A DNA stretch of 64,000 nucleotides, from positions 1 to 64,000 of the forward strand of contig CAMYJG010000023.1 in NCBI GenBank assembly GCA_947258695.1, in the 5' to 3' direction. Origin of the DNA: an uncultured Ectothiorhodospiraceae bacterium (GTDB lineage: Bacteria > Pseudomonadota > Gammaproteobacteria > UBA6429 > Thiohalophilaceae). The position numbers and the translations under genes are program-made. Positions 4,847 through 31,364 of the stretch are shown piece by piece (position 1 is the stretch's first letter; each line of letters starts with the position of its first letter). The notes under the pieces were generated by a model. It was not told where the DNA came from. It saw only the letters and a list, made by a program, of their open reading frames with translations, and did no database searches.

Positions 4847-6886
4847 TTGACTGAAAATATTGGGTTACTAAGTTATTCTGTTAGTGGCTTCAGTTACCTG
4901 ATTTTCGCAGTTCTATTACTGATAAGTTGGCGAGGTAAACTGGAAGGTGGCCTGCTGATTATTGCAATTGTATTTCAATTGATATGGTCAGTCAGTATAG
5001 CGCTTACTTTCTATGGGGTTTTAGGGCCTCACTGGATTTTTCTAGTCGAAATGTTACGTGATATTGCCTGGATATTTTTCTTCTATCTGTTACTACCTAT
5101 TCAACATCGAAAAACCAAACGTTACCTGGATATGTTGATTATTGGGTGCGGTTTATTGGTTATTGGTTTTGCGGGTTATATTGTTATTGATGGTTTACCT
5201 TCAGCAAAAGAAATATTATTGACGTCAATAATATTTATCTCATTGTTGATGTCCGTTGTGGTTCTGGTTTTAGTTGAACAATTATTTCGAAATTTAATTC
5301 CTGATAAGCGTTGGACTGTTAAATATTTGTGTGTTTCTGTCGGTGCGTTGTTTGTTTTTGATCTGTATATGTATGCAGATGCTATTATATTTTCTGGAGT
5401 GGATATGAACCTCTGGAAGACGCGAGGTTTTGTTAATGCCCTGGCGGTTCCATTACTTATTATTTCTGTTCGGCGCCATAAAAAACTTTCGCTAGAAATA
5501 TTTGTATCGCGCCACGTGACCTTCTATTCAACCGGCATACTTTTGGTTGGTGTATATCTTTTCCTGGTGGCATTAGGTGGGTTTTATATTGATGCATATG
5601 GTGGTTCTTGGGCAGCTGTTGCGCAGATAGTATTTCTTGCTGTAACCATTGTTGCTATGGCAATAATTTTGACATCGGAAAAAAGTAGAGCCAGGCTGAA
5701 GGTTTTTATGTCAAAACACTTTTATAAAAACCGTTATGATTATCGTGAAGAATGGCTGCGACTTATTCATAATCTTGCTGAATACAGTTCTTATGAGCGG
5801 TTTAAAGAACAGGTCATACAATCTATTGCGGTGCTGATTTATAGTCGTGGTGGGGTGTTGTATATGGAAGATGAAGATGAATTCAGAGCTACAACATTTC
5901 TTGGAGTATCAGCTAACTTGCCTATGATAGCTTTTAACTCCTCTTTACCTGTATTTTTAAACAAGAGCAACTGGATAGTTGACGTTCATGAATATAATCA
6001 GCAGCCGGAAAAATATGATGGACTTGAGCTTACACAGGAAATAATTAAAATAGATGACATATGGTTAATTGTACCATTAAAGCATCATTATCAACTTATT
6101 GGGTTCGTTATCCTTCTGGAATCGACAATTCTTGATAAACTTACCTGGGAGGATAGGGATTTACTCAAGGCAGTTTCACGGCAAATATCAAGCTATCTGG
6201 CTTTTATTCGAACAACAGAAGAACTTAATCGTGCGCAGCAGTTTAATACCTTTAACAGATTGTCTGCATTTATAGTCCACGATCTAAAAAACCAGATATC
6301 GCAATTAGATTTAATAGTGAAAAACGCGACTAAATTTCGGGATAATCAGGAATTTATTAACGATACGTTTTTAACAGTTGAAAATGTCGTTAGCAGAATG
6401 CAACGTTTATTGGGACAGTTAAAACAAGTAAATCACGAAGTAAGTGATGCGAGAAAGGTCGTTGTTGAACAGATTGCAGCGGATGCGGTTATGTCGTGTT
6501 CAAATAAGATGCCTGCCCCAGTCTTTCAACGTGACGAACAATCTGACAGTGTAATGGTTGATCCAGAACGTTTCAAAAATATATTAGAAAGCTTGATAAT
6601 AAATGCACAAGAGGCGACAGGAACAACCGGAACTGTAGAAGTTATTGTAGAAAGTCTGGTTGACGACATAGCCATAACAATTAAAGATAACGGTTGTGGA
6701 ATGGACTCTTTTTTTATTAAAAACAAATTATTCAAGCCATTTCATACAACAAAAGGGAATGCTGGTATGGGTATTGGTGCATTAGATGCTAAAGAATTTG
6801 TAAGATATTATGGTGGTTCGTTAACCGTTAATAGTGAATTGGGTGAAGGAAGTGAATTCGTGATCCGATTACCAAAAGCAATGTGA
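4847..6886 (+). CDS. prsK: PEP-CTERM system sensor histidine kinase PrsK
   Basis: A 679-residue membrane histidine kinase. Residues 1-280 hold roughly eight hydrophobic segments, followed by a GAF-like region (about 300-450). The phosphoacceptor His478 lies in an IVHDLKNQ box, and a HATPase domain shows the N box INAQEA, DNGCGM and a G box GMGIGAL. This matches the family I recall as TIGR02916 in length and layout. An in-frame stop at 4832 makes TTG at 4847 the first possible start, 12 bases after the transferase stop. Together with the next gene it should sense an unknown cue and phosphorylate PrsR. The unusual VHDLKN H box, rather than HEIRNP-type, is typical of this kinase group. Confidence 0.95.
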   Translation: MTENIGLLSYSVSGFSYLIFAVLLLISWRGKLEGGLLIIAIVFQLIWSVSIALTFYGVLGPHWIFLVEMLRDIAWIFFFYLLLPIQHRKTKRYLDMLIIGCGLLVIGFAGYIVIDGLPSAKEILLTSIIFISLLMSVVVLVLVEQLFRNLIPDKRWTVKYLCVSVGALFVFDLYMYADAIIFSGVDMNLWKTRGFVNALAVPLLIISVRRHKKLSLEIFVSRHVTFYSTGILLVGVYLFLVALGGFYIDAYGGSWAAVAQIVFLAVTIVAMAIILTSEKSRARLKVFMSKHFYKNRYDYREEWLRLIHNLAEYSSYERFKEQVIQSIAVLIYSRGGVLYMEDEDEFRATTFLGVSANLPMIAFNSSLPVFLNKSNWIVDVHEYNQQPEKYDGLELTQEIIKIDDIWLIVPLKHHYQLIGFVILLESTILDKLTWEDRDLLKAVSRQISSYLAFIRTTEELNRAQQFNTFNRLSAFIVHDLKNQISQLDLIVKNATKFRDNQEFINDTFLTVENVVSRMQRLLGQLKQVNHEVSDARKVVVEQIAADAVMSCSNKMPAPVFQRDEQSDSVMVDPERFKNILESLIINAQEATGTTGTVEVIVESLVDDIAITIKDNGCGMDSFFIKNKLFKPFHTTKGNAGMGIGALDAKEFVRYYGGSLTVNSELGEGSEFVIRLPKAM

Positions 6887-6892
6887 GTTGAT

Positions 6893-8242
6893 ATGACTAA
6901 ATCCAATCAGGTGTTAATTGTAGAAGATGATGAAGGCTTGCAGAGACAGCTTAAATGGAGTTTAAGTGAATATGATGTTCTGATTGCTAATAACAAGGAA
7001 GAAGCGATTGCTTTAGTTCGACGTTATAAACCAGAAGTTGTAACCCTTGATCTAGGTTTGCCACCTGACCCTGCTAATGTTAGCGAGGGTTTTGCTACTC
7101 TCGAAGAAATATTATCACTGGTGCCAGAGACAAAGATAATTGTTATTACAGGAAATGACGATCGAGATAATGCTATCAAAGCCGTTACAATGGGTGCGTA
7201 TGATTTTTATCAGAAACCTATAGACCCCGAAATAATAAAAATTATTATCGATCGTGCTTATAAATTGTATTTGTTAGAACATGACTACAGGTTGTTGCAG
7301 AAAAGCACAAATGAATCCCCATTGGAAGGGTTAATTACAGCGGATAAGGGAATGTTGCAAGTTTGCCGTACTATTGAAAAAGTGGCTCCGACTGATACCA
7401 CTGTTTTGTTGATCGGTGAAAGTGGTACCGGAAAAGAAATTCTTGCACGTGCATTACATGAATTAAGCAACAGCATCGAGGAAAAATTTGTAGCAATAAA
7501 TTGTGCTGCCATACCTGAAAATCTATTGGAAAGTGAACTTTTTGGTTATGAAAAAGGTGCGTTTACTGGAGCTGCTAAAAGAACCATTGGTAAAGTAGAA
7601 ATGGCAAATGGGGGCACATTATTTCTTGATGAGATTGGCGACTTATCTATGCCTTTGCAAGCAAAAATACTTCGCTTCTTACAAGAGCGAGTAATTGAAA
7701 GAGTTGGGGGGCGGGAAGAAATCGCTCTTGATGTTAGAGTCATTTCTGCTACACACCATGATATTAAAAATATGGTTGCCAACGAGGAGTTTCGAGAAGA
7801 TTTATTTTATCGTTTGAGTGAAATTACTATTAAAATTCCACCACTTCGGGAGCGTGCCAATGATGCGGTAATATTGGCGAGACATTTTTTAGGAAAATTT
7901 GCAAATCAGAATAAGAGAACGATTAAAGGTATAGCGAATACTGGGTTGCTTGCGATCGAAAATCATGATTGGCCAGGTAATGTTCGTGAGCTTGAGAGCA
8001 CACTTAAAAGAGCTGTAATAATGGCAGAATCGACAATGTTAACTGATAAGGATTTAGGGCTTGAAAATAAAGGAGGGTATAAATTATTGCTAAGTCTGCG
8101 TGATACAAGAGAAAAAGCCGAGAAAGAAGCTGTAACACATGCTTTAAGTCATACTGGTGGTAATGTTTCAAAAGCTGCAGAGTTGCTCGGTGTAAGTCGA
8201 CCAACGTTATATGATATTATGAATAAACATGATCTTAAATAA
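6893..8242 (+). CDS. prsR: PEP-CTERM system sigma-54-dependent response regulator PrsR
   Basis: A 449-residue NtrC-type activator. The receiver domain (about 5-125) has the acidic pair E11/D12 and phosphoacceptor Asp53 in TLDLGLPP. The AAA+ domain has Walker A GESGTGKE (175-182), the sigma-54 contact loop GAFTGA (222-227) and Walker B LFLDEIGD (243-250). A Fis-type helix-turn-helix at the C-terminus contains SKAAELLGVSRPTLY. All residues needed for sigma-54 activation are intact, so it should act at -24/-12 promoters. One near-consensus site lies before the PEP-CTERM gene at about 31.1 kb and a weaker one at 42.6 kb. The start is 6 bases after prsK, and the end overlaps xrtA by 14 bases. Confidence 0.96.
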   Translation: MTKSNQVLIVEDDEGLQRQLKWSLSEYDVLIANNKEEAIALVRRYKPEVVTLDLGLPPDPANVSEGFATLEEILSLVPETKIIVITGNDDRDNAIKAVTMGAYDFYQKPIDPEIIKIIIDRAYKLYLLEHDYRLLQKSTNESPLEGLITADKGMLQVCRTIEKVAPTDTTVLLIGESGTGKEILARALHELSNSIEEKFVAINCAAIPENLLESELFGYEKGAFTGAAKRTIGKVEMANGGTLFLDEIGDLSMPLQAKILRFLQERVIERVGGREEIALDVRVISATHHDIKNMVANEEFREDLFYRLSEITIKIPPLRERANDAVILARHFLGKFANQNKRTIKGIANTGLLAIENHDWPGNVRELESTLKRAVIMAESTMLTDKDLGLENKGGYKLLLSLRDTREKAEKEAVTHALSHTGGNVSKAAELLGVSRPTLYDIMNKHDLK

Positions 8243-9815
8243 TCTGCTGAAAAACCAAAACCTGAAACAGTTTTGGTTAGTTTTATTTATATCAATATTA
8301 GTTGTTGTTTTTTATTTCCAGTCAGTTCGTAGTCTATTCGAGCTTTGGGTGACATCAGGGAATTCAACATATTCTCATGGGTCGATCTTGTTTTTAGTTG
8401 CCCTATATGCATTTTTAAAACGTTTTGACTCAATGTCGCCAACTATTGTAATCAAAAATGATATTTTTGGTTGGGTTGCTCTAATGATGGTCTCATTTAT
8501 ATGGGGTGGCTTCATAGTGGCCGGAATTAAAGTTGGGTACCAGCTTTTAATTGTCATGATATTTCCCATATGTCTATGGTTCCTTTTTGGGATTAAGATG
8601 GCCTGGAAAATATCCATACCGTTATTTCTAATATTATTTGCAATACCGGTATGGGAGACAATAAACCAGGGACAGTTACAAATTATGACTGCCTATCTTG
8701 TTACCAAATTATTAATACTGTCTGGATTTTTGGTTTACAGAGAAGGTATAGACATAATGGTGACGGCTGGCTCATTTCGTGTGGCGGAGAACTGTTCTGG
8801 TATTCGTTTACTTTTAGTAGCCATGCCGTTGTCGCTAATATTCTCATATATAAATCAACTTAGGTTGAAGTATGCGATTATATTTTTTGTTGTATCAATT
8901 CTAGCTGCTGTAATAACTAATTTGATCAGAATTTATATAGTGATAGTTGCCGGGCAACTGACTAAAATGCAGCATTATTTTGTTACGGAAGATCATGTCA
9001 CTCTAGGATGGGTTCTTTTTGCTTTTATTTTTTTAATTTTATTCACAGGGTCAAAAAAGATACTAGGTAAATTTAATGCAGCAGAAATGACATCTGCTAG
9101 CAATAAAGTAACAAATAAGTCACTTAAAACCACAAGTGTTAACATGGTCCGTACTATGACTTTAGTTTTAATTGGGCTTCTGCCAGGCCCTCTTTATATT
9201 CAATATGTTCAGAATACAGATTTATATATCAATGAAGATGTTAAGGTAGAAGTGAGTTCTGGATGGGAGATAGAAGCAAATGATATTGGTTTTACTCCAA
9301 TTCTATTGCCTGCTGACTGGGAATATAGGCAAGGCTATGTAAAGGATGATAAACGGATAAACCTTTATATTAATTATTATTCTGTACAACGAGATAACAG
9401 CAAGGCGTTATCCAAAATTAATAGTTTGTATGATAGAGATAAATGGCATTTAATAACTAGTACTATCGTAAATTTTCAAGAAAACAACTCAAATAATAAT
9501 ATTACAGCTAATATGTATTTGATTGAAAATAACGCAGGACAACAAAAATACATTTGGCAATGGTATTATCTATGGGGTAAGCATACAGGTAAATACAGCT
9601 ATGCTAAATTACTGAGTATTCTTGGTGCTTTTATTAATTATACTGATGCAAGCATGATTATTCTAGAGATGGACGTATTGACGGATAGCCGAGCGACAGG
9701 AAATATATTAGAGGAATTTGCATCTCTATTAATTAAACCTGTGACAAATGTACTTGAAACGAAATTAACAAAACAGCAAAAGAGTGAAGAGCATGATGTG
9801 CAGATTACGAATTAA
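8229..9815 (+). CDS. xrtA: Exosortase A (XrtA) with C-terminal EpsI domain
   Basis: A multipass membrane cysteine transpeptidase-like protease of the exosortase family that cleaves PEP-CTERM sorting tails. About eight membrane helices fill residues 1-280, with the TYSHG segment near residue 45. The catalytic triad is visible: Cys189 in AENCSGIRLL, Arg234 in NLIRIYIV and His256 in TEDHVTLGWVLF. Residues from about 330 to 510 are a periplasmic EpsI-type domain, so this is the fused form (528 residues) common in XrtA systems. The gene overlaps prsR by 14 bases and prsT by up to 32. Its likely substrate in this window is the small PEP-CTERM protein at 30.6-31.0 kb. Identification is strong because all three catalytic residues and the gene order agree. 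Confidence 0.96.
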   Translation: MILNNLLKNQNLKQFWLVLFISILVVVFYFQSVRSLFELWVTSGNSTYSHGSILFLVALYAFLKRFDSMSPTIVIKNDIFGWVALMMVSFIWGGFIVAGIKVGYQLLIVMIFPICLWFLFGIKMAWKISIPLFLILFAIPVWETINQGQLQIMTAYLVTKLLILSGFLVYREGIDIMVTAGSFRVAENCSGIRLLLVAMPLSLIFSYINQLRLKYAIIFFVVSILAAVITNLIRIYIVIVAGQLTKMQHYFVTEDHVTLGWVLFAFIFLILFTGSKKILGKFNAAEMTSASNKVTNKSLKTTSVNMVRTMTLVLIGLLPGPLYIQYVQNTDLYINEDVKVEVSSGWEIEANDIGFTPILLPADWEYRQGYVKDDKRINLYINYYSVQRDNSKALSKINSLYDRDKWHLITSTIVNFQENNSNNNITANMYLIENNAGQQKYIWQWYYLWGKHTGKYSYAKLLSILGAFINYTDASMIILEMDVLTDSRATGNILEEFASLLIKPVTNVLETKLTKQQKSEEHDVQITN

Positions 9816-12597
9816 AACTGGTGTATATAATTGCTTGGTTATGTGCCTGTCTTTTTTTCTATTTTCTTGTTCTGGGCATGATGATGTTAGCATGCTATTG
9901 GCTACAGCATCCGATCAAATTTCAAATAAAAATTATTCCGCTGCAGTCATAACTTTAAAAAACGTAATACAAATTGAAAAAGAGAACGGAAAGGCAAGAG
10001 AACAGCTGGCGAATGTTTATCTCGCATTGGGCAACTATCCGGCGGCTGAGAAAGAATATAGGAGAGCGTTCCAATACGAGGGCATAAATTCTAATATTAT
10101 TTTAGGATTAGGAAGCAGCTTAAATACTCAGGGTAAATATAAACAAACGCTAAGCGAAAAAACCTTTAACATCGCCAACACTAAATCGTCAAAGATAAAT
10201 GTATTACTCGTTAAGGGTGATGCAAATTATGGGTTGGGTCGATTCGCTGCTGCTGAAACGGCATACATGAATGCTCTAAAGCTGGATCCCAATTCAATTA
10301 TTGCATTGACTGGTATGGCAAGGGTGGCCATAAGTGATGGAAGATATATAGAAGCAAATGCATATATTCGTGATGCTGAAAATATCGATAATGAAGATCA
10401 AGGCTTGTGGCTTGCGAAAGGGATATTGAGTTATCAGGAAGGTAACATTATAGCGGCAGAAGAATCTTTTTTGAAAATTATTGGTTTATCTAATCAGGAC
10501 TCAGTTACATATGTAGAGTTTCGAGCATACATTGGTTTGATAACGCTGCATCTAAAGAAGAATCAGACAGAAAAAGCAGATAAAAAAATTCAAGTGCTTT
10601 TAAAAAAAGCTCCAAACAATTTGCTCCCAATATATTATAGTGCAATAGTTGATTATCAGAAAAAAAATTATTCTGAGGCACAAAAAAAACTTCGTGTTGT
10701 TGTAGAGAAGCTACCAGAGTACATGTCGGCAACGTTTTTACTTGGCGCAACTAATTATGCTTTGGGGAATTATGAACAAGCTGACGCATTGCTGACTAAG
10801 TTTGTATATGAGATTCCAAACCATATACCTGCAAGGAAAATATTAACTGTGACTCGCCTGAAGTTAAACAGGCCGAAATATGCTTTAGATGCTGTAAGTC
10901 CGGCTATAGCGAAGGATGACAAAGATATACAGTTATTAATGATGGCTGGAATGGCAGCGACATCTATGGGCGATGCCTCTACTGGTATAAAATATTACAA
11001 GCGAGCAGGAAAATTAAGCTCAGACAACAAATATATTCGAGAAGAATTGGCAAAAATTTATCTTGCCGAGGGTGATATTGATAAGGCTATTGACGAACTT
11101 AAATTAAATATTACTGACTCTGATTCTATTAGAACACTTGTGTTATTGGCTAGGGCGCATTTAAAAAAAGGAGAAAGTAAACAGGCGAGAAATTATATTC
11201 AGCAAGCTATAAATGCAAAAAAGGATTCTCCGAATCTTTATACGTTACTAGGAGTGACTGAGCTCATTGGAGGAAATAAAGATTTAGCAATTGCTGCATT
11301 TCGTAATGCAGTTAATGTTTCTGAAGATTTTATTCCTGCGTATTATTATTTGGCTCAGTTAGAGTTTGAAAATGGAAGTCGAGCTAAAGCTGAGGAATAT
11401 TTTGCTCATATATTAGAGTTGCAACCTGGTAATTTAAATGCCATGTTTGGTATGGCTCATATTTCGGAATCCCGTAATGATATCGATCAAGCAGTTGAGT
11501 GGCTAAAGAAAGCCATTAAATCTAATCCCGGTAAGTCAAAACCATATCTGGTTTTAGGGTATTACTATATAAAAACGAAGCAAACTGATGAAGCTTTGAA
11601 GCTTGTTGAAGATCTAAAGAAACTACCTGCAGCCCCAGATGTTTCTCTATATATTGCAAGGGTTTATTTGCTAGTTGGGCAGTATGAAAAAAGCATCTCA
11701 GTATTGAAGAAAATAAAATTTGATGAAAAGAAAGACTTAGAGGTACGAAGTGAACTTGCTAAATTGTATTTAAAAATGGGAGATTATATTTCGGCAAAAA
11801 AAGAAATAAATAAAGCAATAGACCTTGAGCCCACCAATATAAAACCTTATTTGTTGTTGGCTATGATTGAAACAAATTCTGGCAATATTGATAACGCGCT
11901 TAAGGTAGCAAATAAGATAGAACTGTTATTCCCGAACTTCTCTTTGGTTAATGAAATTTATGGTGATATTTATTTAAGCAATAAATTTTTCAGTAAGGCA
12001 GTCAATCATTATCAAAAATCAATTGCTTCTAACCCCGGAGTAACGCGGTATATAAAGCTAGCGAACTCATACGCAAAAGATAAAAACATCAAACATGCTA
12101 TTGCAACCCTAACTAAGGCTAACGAACTATACCCCAACGAAAAAAGAATTTTATTTGCGCAGGGGAATTTGTATCAATTAAATAACAAGCCTCATAGGGC
12201 AATAGAGTTATATGAGAAAATTATCAATACATCTCCGAATGATACGACAGTTCTAAATAATTTGGCTTACGCTTATATTGATATTAATAATAAAAAATCC
12301 TTAAAATACGCTCATCAGGCATATAAAATTGCGCCAACAAATGTGGCTATAATTGATACGCTAGCCTGGGTTTTAATCAATACAGGTAAAAACAAGGAGG
12401 CAGTCGGTTATCTTGATAAGTTATATAATTCGACAGATATACCATCTATTCATTATCATTACGCAGTTGGCTTGTATAACCTGGAAAAATATGAAGAGGC
12501 AAAAAAAATATTGTCGAAATTAATTCAATCAAAGCAAGTATTCATGGAGCAAGATGCGGCCAGAGCCTTATTAAAGAAAGTCGAGGGCAAGCAATAG
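9784..12597 (+). CDS. prsT: PEP-CTERM system TPR-repeat lipoprotein PrsT
   Basis: A 937-residue envelope protein built almost entirely of tetratricopeptide repeats (about residues 50-930, more than twenty helix pairs of the A-x-x-x-Y/L-x-x-A pattern). The N-terminal hydrophobic segment ends in a lipobox LFSC (Cys29 counted from the first start), so it should be a lipoprotein. Length and position right after xrtA match the family recalled as TIGR02917, thought to scaffold polymer or PEP-CTERM export. The GTG at 9784 is the first start, but ATG at 9793 or 9796 is equally plausible, with GAAGA just upstream of 9796. It begins inside xrtA. It ends the first gene group and is followed by a 569-base gap. 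Confidence 0.93.
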   Translation: MKSMMCRLRIKTGVYNCLVMCLSFFLFSCSGHDDVSMLLATASDQISNKNYSAAVITLKNVIQIEKENGKAREQLANVYLALGNYPAAEKEYRRAFQYEGINSNIILGLGSSLNTQGKYKQTLSEKTFNIANTKSSKINVLLVKGDANYGLGRFAAAETAYMNALKLDPNSIIALTGMARVAISDGRYIEANAYIRDAENIDNEDQGLWLAKGILSYQEGNIIAAEESFLKIIGLSNQDSVTYVEFRAYIGLITLHLKKNQTEKADKKIQVLLKKAPNNLLPIYYSAIVDYQKKNYSEAQKKLRVVVEKLPEYMSATFLLGATNYALGNYEQADALLTKFVYEIPNHIPARKILTVTRLKLNRPKYALDAVSPAIAKDDKDIQLLMMAGMAATSMGDASTGIKYYKRAGKLSSDNKYIREELAKIYLAEGDIDKAIDELKLNITDSDSIRTLVLLARAHLKKGESKQARNYIQQAINAKKDSPNLYTLLGVTELIGGNKDLAIAAFRNAVNVSEDFIPAYYYLAQLEFENGSRAKAEEYFAHILELQPGNLNAMFGMAHISESRNDIDQAVEWLKKAIKSNPGKSKPYLVLGYYYIKTKQTDEALKLVEDLKKLPAAPDVSLYIARVYLLVGQYEKSISVLKKIKFDEKKDLEVRSELAKLYLKMGDYISAKKEINKAIDLEPTNIKPYLLLAMIETNSGNIDNALKVANKIELLFPNFSLVNEIYGDIYLSNKFFSKAVNHYQKSIASNPGVTRYIKLANSYAKDKNIKHAIATLTKANELYPNEKRILFAQGNLYQLNNKPHRAIELYEKIINTSPNDTTVLNNLAYAYIDINNKKSLKYAHQAYKIAPTNVAIIDTLAWVLINTGKNKEAVGYLDKLYNSTDIPSIHYHYAVGLYNLEKYEEAKKILSKLIQSKQVFMEQDAARALLKKVEGKQ

Positions 12598-30602: not shown

Positions 30603-31049
30603 TCAAATACCGTGTCGTCGCCTAACTATTCCATGAACTAGCATCAATAAAAGACCCATCGCAAAGAGGATAAGAACTGATGGTTCAGGGACATGAATAT
30701 AGGATGTCAGGTAGGTATATGAAATTGGACGATCAAGCGCAGTATAACGACTCTCAGCCGTGAGAACATACATGCCATCAATGCCTAATTCTTCAAAGGT
30801 TACATCATTGATGATACCAGTCCACTCGTAGTATACACGCTCAGACCAATAACCGATCTGTAAAGCTCCTCCCCCCACGTCAGTGACTCCATCATGCGCT
30901 GTTTCAGCATAGAATCGCATAGTGTTATTTCCCATGTCATTCCACGCAATTCCAAGGAGATGCGCATTGCTAGACATGCTAAAGCCGGTAAGTGACATGA
31001 AGACGACTATCTGCAGAATTTTAAAGAACTTCCAAGTACTATTTTTCAA
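30603..31049 (-). CDS. PEP-CTERM sorting domain protein (probable exosortase A substrate)
   Basis: A small exported protein of 148 residues. The N-terminal signal peptide (about 1-29, ending SMSSNA) precedes a short domain of about 85 residues with no family I recognise, rich in aromatic and acidic residues. The C-terminus is a textbook PEP-CTERM tail: V-PEP, a hydrophobic helix (LILFAMGLLLMLVHGIV) and a basic RRR-x-G end. XrtA should cut at this tail and release or transfer the protein at the cell surface. Translation begins at TTG, with AGGGGA about 6 bases upstream. A strong sigma-54 element lies about 40 bases upstream. It is the only PEP-CTERM protein seen in the window. Confidence 0.93.
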   Translation of the reverse strand: MKNSTWKFFKILQIVVFMSLTGFSMSSNAHLLGIAWNDMGNNTMRFYAETAHDGVTDVGGGALQIGYWSERVYYEWTGIINDVTFEELGIDGMYVLTAESRYTALDRPISYTYLTSYIHVPEPSVLILFAMGLLLMLVHGIVRRRHGI

Positions 31050-31088
31050 TTCCTTCCCCTATAGTTGGTATTAAGCTATCGGTGATAG

Positions 31089-31105
31089 TGCAATTAACAG
31101 GCCAA
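31089..31105 (-). promoter_or_regulatory. Sigma-54 (-24/-12) promoter of the PEP-CTERM gene
   Basis: Read on the minus strand the site is TTGGCCTGTTAATTGCA, with GG and GC exactly ten bases apart. Against the consensus TTGGCACG-N4-TTGCA it differs at only two positions, both between the boxes. The predicted transcription start is near 31078, giving a leader of about 30 bases with the AGGGGA ribosome-binding site inside it. PrsR, encoded at 6.9 kb, is an intact sigma-54 activator. The rest of 31050-31364 shows no gene; no clear PrsR binding palindrome could be identified. Confidence 0.8.
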
Positions 31106-31364
31106 TATTATAACTACTTGTTTTATATGGAAATAATTCAATTTACCCATCTTAGAAATCGTTAGCGTGTAAGGCTGAGCTAACAGTTAATCTGTATTCG
31201 AAAAATATGTGTAAGGTTTGCTTTACAAAAATAGGTAAATCACATTTACTTATGATTATTTAAGCAATTATTTGTGAGACTACTGAAATTGCAAGGCCAG
31301 ATAGTTACAGCTGTTATTTCTCTACTAAATCCTCAGAAGTTATTCACGTGGTGTTGATGGTTTT

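Follow-up and report, generated by a model that had tools for sequence, protein, structure and literature searches.

The PEP-CTERM gene at positions 30603-31049 on the minus strand of the window (the whole stretch of DNA analyzed, 64,000 nt) is preceded by TTGGCCTGTTAATTGCA, which is very probably a real sigma-54 promoter, as judged from sequence. Use of RpoN at this site is likely, and PrsR is, by a weaker line of inference, a plausible activator and more likely than not the one in use. The account that we favor, though with considerable reserve, combines the two: a sigma-54 promoter activated by PrsR by way of activator boxes that have diverged from the canonical form. TTGGCCTGTTAATTGCA would then be the genuine promoter from which the PEP-CTERM gene is transcribed and an example of the motif 2 arrangement described by Haft et al. 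In this mechanism, the kinase PrsK would phosphorylate PrsR, the most likely activator, which would bind one or both of the diverged boxes, lying 62 and 104 nt upstream, and the GAFTGA loop of its AAA+ domain would open the RpoN-polymerase complex.

Promoter geometry and statistical support

The gene encodes a protein of 148 amino acids from a TTG start, with a signal peptide (judged by eye), a VPEPS motif, a hydrophobic stretch and an RRR tail, so that the PEP motif, hydrophobic helix and basic tail of PEP-CTERM proteins are all present. Its scores lie close to the thresholds of the family models, at 16.7 bits for TIGR02595, narrowly over the cut-off of 16, and 20.1 bits for PF07589, just below the cut-off of 20.7. 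The intergenic region on its 5' side extends for 315 nt to the end of the nearest upstream gene. Phylogenetic footprinting of this gene failed because no close homologue was found, either among 58 genomes or in a wider collection of genome contigs.

An earlier note on this DNA had proposed a sigma-54 site in front of the PEP-CTERM gene, and its sequence, strand and coordinates proved correct: positions 31105-31089 of the minus strand read TTGGCCTGTTAATTGCA. The GG (31103-31102) and GC (31091-31090) dinucleotides have exactly 10 bases between them, as that note had said, and its estimate of about 40 bases to the start codon compares with 39 nt from the end of TTGGCCTGTTAATTGCA to the TTG at 31049. 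Relative to the consensus YTGGCACG-N4-TTGCW, the sole mismatches concern two letters of TGGCAC, its A and its second C. The spacing of GG and GC places the predicted transcription start at 31078, 12 nt past the C of the -12 GC according to standard -24/-12 geometry. The purine-rich ribosome-binding sequence AGGGGAAGGA (31060-31051, minus strand) falls inside the predicted leader, again as the note had claimed.

Statistical support was sought with weight matrices trained solely on the PEP-CTERM genes of related genomes, with 26 of 27 regions retained in the final matrices. The motif 2 matrix ranked TTGGCCTGTTAATTGCA first among ~128,000 window positions on both strands, at 15.9 bits against 13.6 for the runner-up. 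A loose consensus scan of the window allowing three mismatches gave no useful signal (266 matches vs. 238 expected). The strict pattern TGGCNYGN4TTGCW occurs eight times in the 3.2-Mb genome, and a reversed control occurs four times. Six of the eight, including TTGGCCTGTTAATTGCA, are intergenic and lie 28-44 nt 5' of a gene, as expected for real sigma-54 promoters; the genes behind them encode an NtrB-like kinase, a flagellar rod protein, a SoxY-like protein, two other products and the PEP-CTERM protein. Genes for NtrB-like kinases and flagellar rod proteins are classic sigma-54 targets. The genome carries one copy of rpoN (TIGR02395, 492 bits). Geometry, matrix rank, genome-wide pattern and the presence of rpoN thus support well the proposal that the PEP-CTERM gene is under sigma-54 control.

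One of the strict sites is of separate interest. It lies 34 nt before the SoxY-like gene and just past a gene for an NtrC-type regulator (contig C53:11244, locus L095), and it is possible that sulfur oxidation is under sigma-54 control at that locus.

The match could instead have arisen by chance, in which case the gene would depend on sigma-70 polymerase or be scarcely transcribed, a reading that we regard as improbable. Base composition predicts ~0.09 scores as high as that of TTGGCCTGTTAATTGCA per 64 kb and ~4 per genome, and two of the eight strict sites fall within coding sequence, while a perfect TATAAT is found at 31112-31107. This hexamer was considered as a sigma-70 promoter and found unsupported, as it has no acceptable -35 partner and the sigma-70 scan lists no site there; the region as a whole contains five sigma-70 sites vs. 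4.0 in shuffled sequences. In addition, it is unlikely that the top-scoring sigma-54 match in the window would fall by chance at the usual distance from a member of a gene class known to use such sites.

The prs locus and published PEP-CTERM systems

PrsK, PrsR and PrsT are all encoded in the window on the plus strand, together with an exosortase, and all three exceed the cut-offs of their families. The sensor histidine kinase gene prsK (4847-6886; TIGR02916, 662 bits vs. a cut-off of 300) is followed by prsR (6893-8242; TIGR02915, 718 bits vs. 502.6), which encodes an NtrC-type response regulator, by an XrtA-like exosortase gene with an EpsI domain (8229-9815; TIGR02602, 122 bits, over the cut-off), and by prsT, which encodes a TPR lipoprotein (9784-12597; TIGR02917, 584 bits). 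The assignment of PrsK and PrsR to their families and the intact GAFTGA loop of PrsR, both put forward previously, are borne out by these scores and by the sequence. Only one PrsR over the cut-off was found in the genome.

The exosortase has a fused EpsI-type C-terminal domain and scores 166.7 bits with the XrtA-specific model TIGR03109, below its cut-off of 208, although its companion genes are all of the XrtA type. PrsR over the cut-off is present in this genome and in none of seven others of the same genus. The exosortase locus at 4847-12597 may be a recent gain, or may have been lost frequently.

In Proteobacteria, most PEP-CTERM genes are preceded by a long region in which motif 1, of 17 nt ending in TTTACA, is separated by 62.8 ± 10.6 nt from motif 2, a sigma-54 site (Haft et al., 2006; PMC1569441). 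PrsR, PrsK and PrsT share a phylogenetic profile with this element and were so named for that link (Haft et al., 2006). The window gene resembles the published arrangement in its sigma-54 motif 2, located 39 nt before the start codon (published range 23-221 nt), in its long intergenic region, in the presence of PrsK, PrsR, PrsT and an exosortase in the genome, and in a TTACA half-site at 62 nt. It differs in that no canonical motif 1 is found 32-92 nt before motif 2; the variant present is 18 rather than 17 nt long, ends in CTTACA rather than TTTACA, and scores below background in register.

A second precedent is pepA of Aquincola tertiaricarbonis RN12, for which transcription was mapped to a start with -24/-12 GG and GC elements and found to be RpoN1-dependent, while dependence on PrsR was left unshown (2023 study; PMC9850573). 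Both genes are PEP-CTERM genes behind GG/GC -24/-12 elements, and pepA also has a predicted upstream enhancer. However, pepA adjoins prsT, whereas the window gene is ~18 kb from prsT and 22-24 kb from prsR and prsK. The connection that the earlier note made between PrsK-PrsR, RpoN and PEP-CTERM expression accordingly holds in its general form, which was published in 2006 (PMC1569441), and for RpoN1 through the 2023 work (PMC9850573), which did not extend it to PrsR. The idea is thus an existing model carried over to another genome, where the distorted activator box is the one unusual point. The case supports what was predicted in 2006, namely that sigma-54 serves to turn on PEP-CTERM cargo, and does so in a lineage in which other genomes of the genus lack PrsR.

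A missing or distorted activator box

The canonical PrsR-associated box is a 17-nt sequence, TGTCRG-N5-TTTACA, for which a score of at least 12 bits was taken as qualifying. Such a box was absent from both strands of the 315-nt intergenic region and from the 1.2 kb upstream; the best scores at the window gene were 1.9 bits on the coding strand and ~4.0 bits on the opposite one, compared with 12-20 bits for true boxes. In relatives, a good sigma-54 site was found at 20 PEP-CTERM genes, and 18 of these have a canonical box within 330 nt, a count that is partly circular since the matrix was trained on the same genes. The missing box counts against PrsR control of the window gene, which is plausible all the same. 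The earlier suggestion that PrsR, encoded 24 kb away, controls this gene is thus upheld as to sigma-54 control and weakened at the PrsR step, for which 18-nt variants alone are available.

The first of these variants, TGTTAGCTCAGCCTTACA (31168-31185, minus strand), lies 62 nt before the promoter, the modal distance to motif 2, and has the form TGTTAG-N6-CTTACA, one base over the canonical length. It is possibly a degenerate PrsR box. A second 18-nt dyad, TGTAAAGCAAACCTTACA (31210-31227, minus strand), is located 42 nt further upstream and, like the first, is suggestive only. TGTYR and YTTACA half-sites spaced 16-18 nt at a distance of 45-75 nt occurred in 0.065% of shuffled sequences, in a test framed after the sequence had been seen. 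In a search of 57 other genomes, no PEP-CTERM gene was preceded by the 18-nt spacing; there were four matches, three of them in long open reading frames and the fourth unassigned. The PrsR recognition helix, LLGVSRPTLYD, is a near letter-for-letter match to those of relatives, so a changed protein does not explain the changed box spacing. The repeated CCTTACAC boxes were also considered as a significant direct repeat, which was rejected, as shuffled sequences equal them and a repeat search omits them.

These features bear on a different possibility, in which the sigma-54 promoter is real and another enhancer-binding protein acts through the pair of 18-nt TGT-N12-ACA dyads, which are spaced 42 nt apart, in response to a signal that differs from that of the PrsR genes. 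We consider this a minority reading, yet one to be taken seriously. It would account for the lack of a canonical box, and more than 20 NtrC-type matches in the genome could supply the activator, none of which can be named as a specific candidate. A 19-nt dyad pattern has its only two perfect matches in the genome at this site, although the pattern was built from these very copies; the two dyads are identical at 13 of 19 positions, which is no better than chance, as nearly all shuffles hold an equal or better pair. Moreover, the PEP-CTERM genes of relatives are normally paired with a PrsR box, which speaks against this reading. It is rather unlikely that the window gene has left the PrsR regulon for that of another enhancer-binding protein, or that PrsR reads an 18-nt box not previously described; in either event, substrates of a single exosortase would answer to two separate signals.

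Other PEP-CTERM genes and box-plus-promoter elements

The window gene had been taken to be the only PEP-CTERM gene, which is true of the window; the genome contains a second and stronger one (34 bits) on another contig (C21:32778-33512; L001:844-1578). Boxes of the canonical type, AGTCGGATAGCTTTACA and TGTCGAATAACATTACA, precede this gene at 49 nt and at a greater distance, and its weaker sigma-54 site, TGGCATAAATATTGTA, carries GT in place of the -12 GC. A homologue with 47% identity in genome G022 likewise has a canonical box, at 50 nt compared with 49 nt here. From the sequence, PrsR control is better supported for the C21 gene than for the window gene. The two form a natural pair within one genome for examining what PrsR requires, one having canonical boxes and a weak promoter and the other a strong promoter and distorted boxes.

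A joint box-plus-promoter pattern was found in 11 of 14 genomes with PrsR over the cut-off vs. 8 of 44 without it, so that the published association between PrsR and the element is reproduced in these genomes, with exceptions. In three of those eight (G006, G020 and G031), the site is internal to an open reading frame and no PEP-CTERM gene follows it; in several of the others the element does precede a PEP-CTERM gene, as in most of the matches that were followed. One further match in the present genome (C13:42643), inside a fliI-like coding sequence, was dismissed as chance.

Five canonical box-plus-promoter elements (L058, L071 and further loci) occur in genome G032, which is 97% complete and has no PrsR over the cut-off; a missing contig or another regulator could possibly explain them. 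Elsewhere in the present genome, a secreted protein of 200 amino acids (contig C16:39907, locus L044), whose gene has neither the box nor a sigma-54 site upstream, ends in VPAAAWLFGSALLGFFGYARKK, which resembles a PEP-type sorting tail without the PEP motif.
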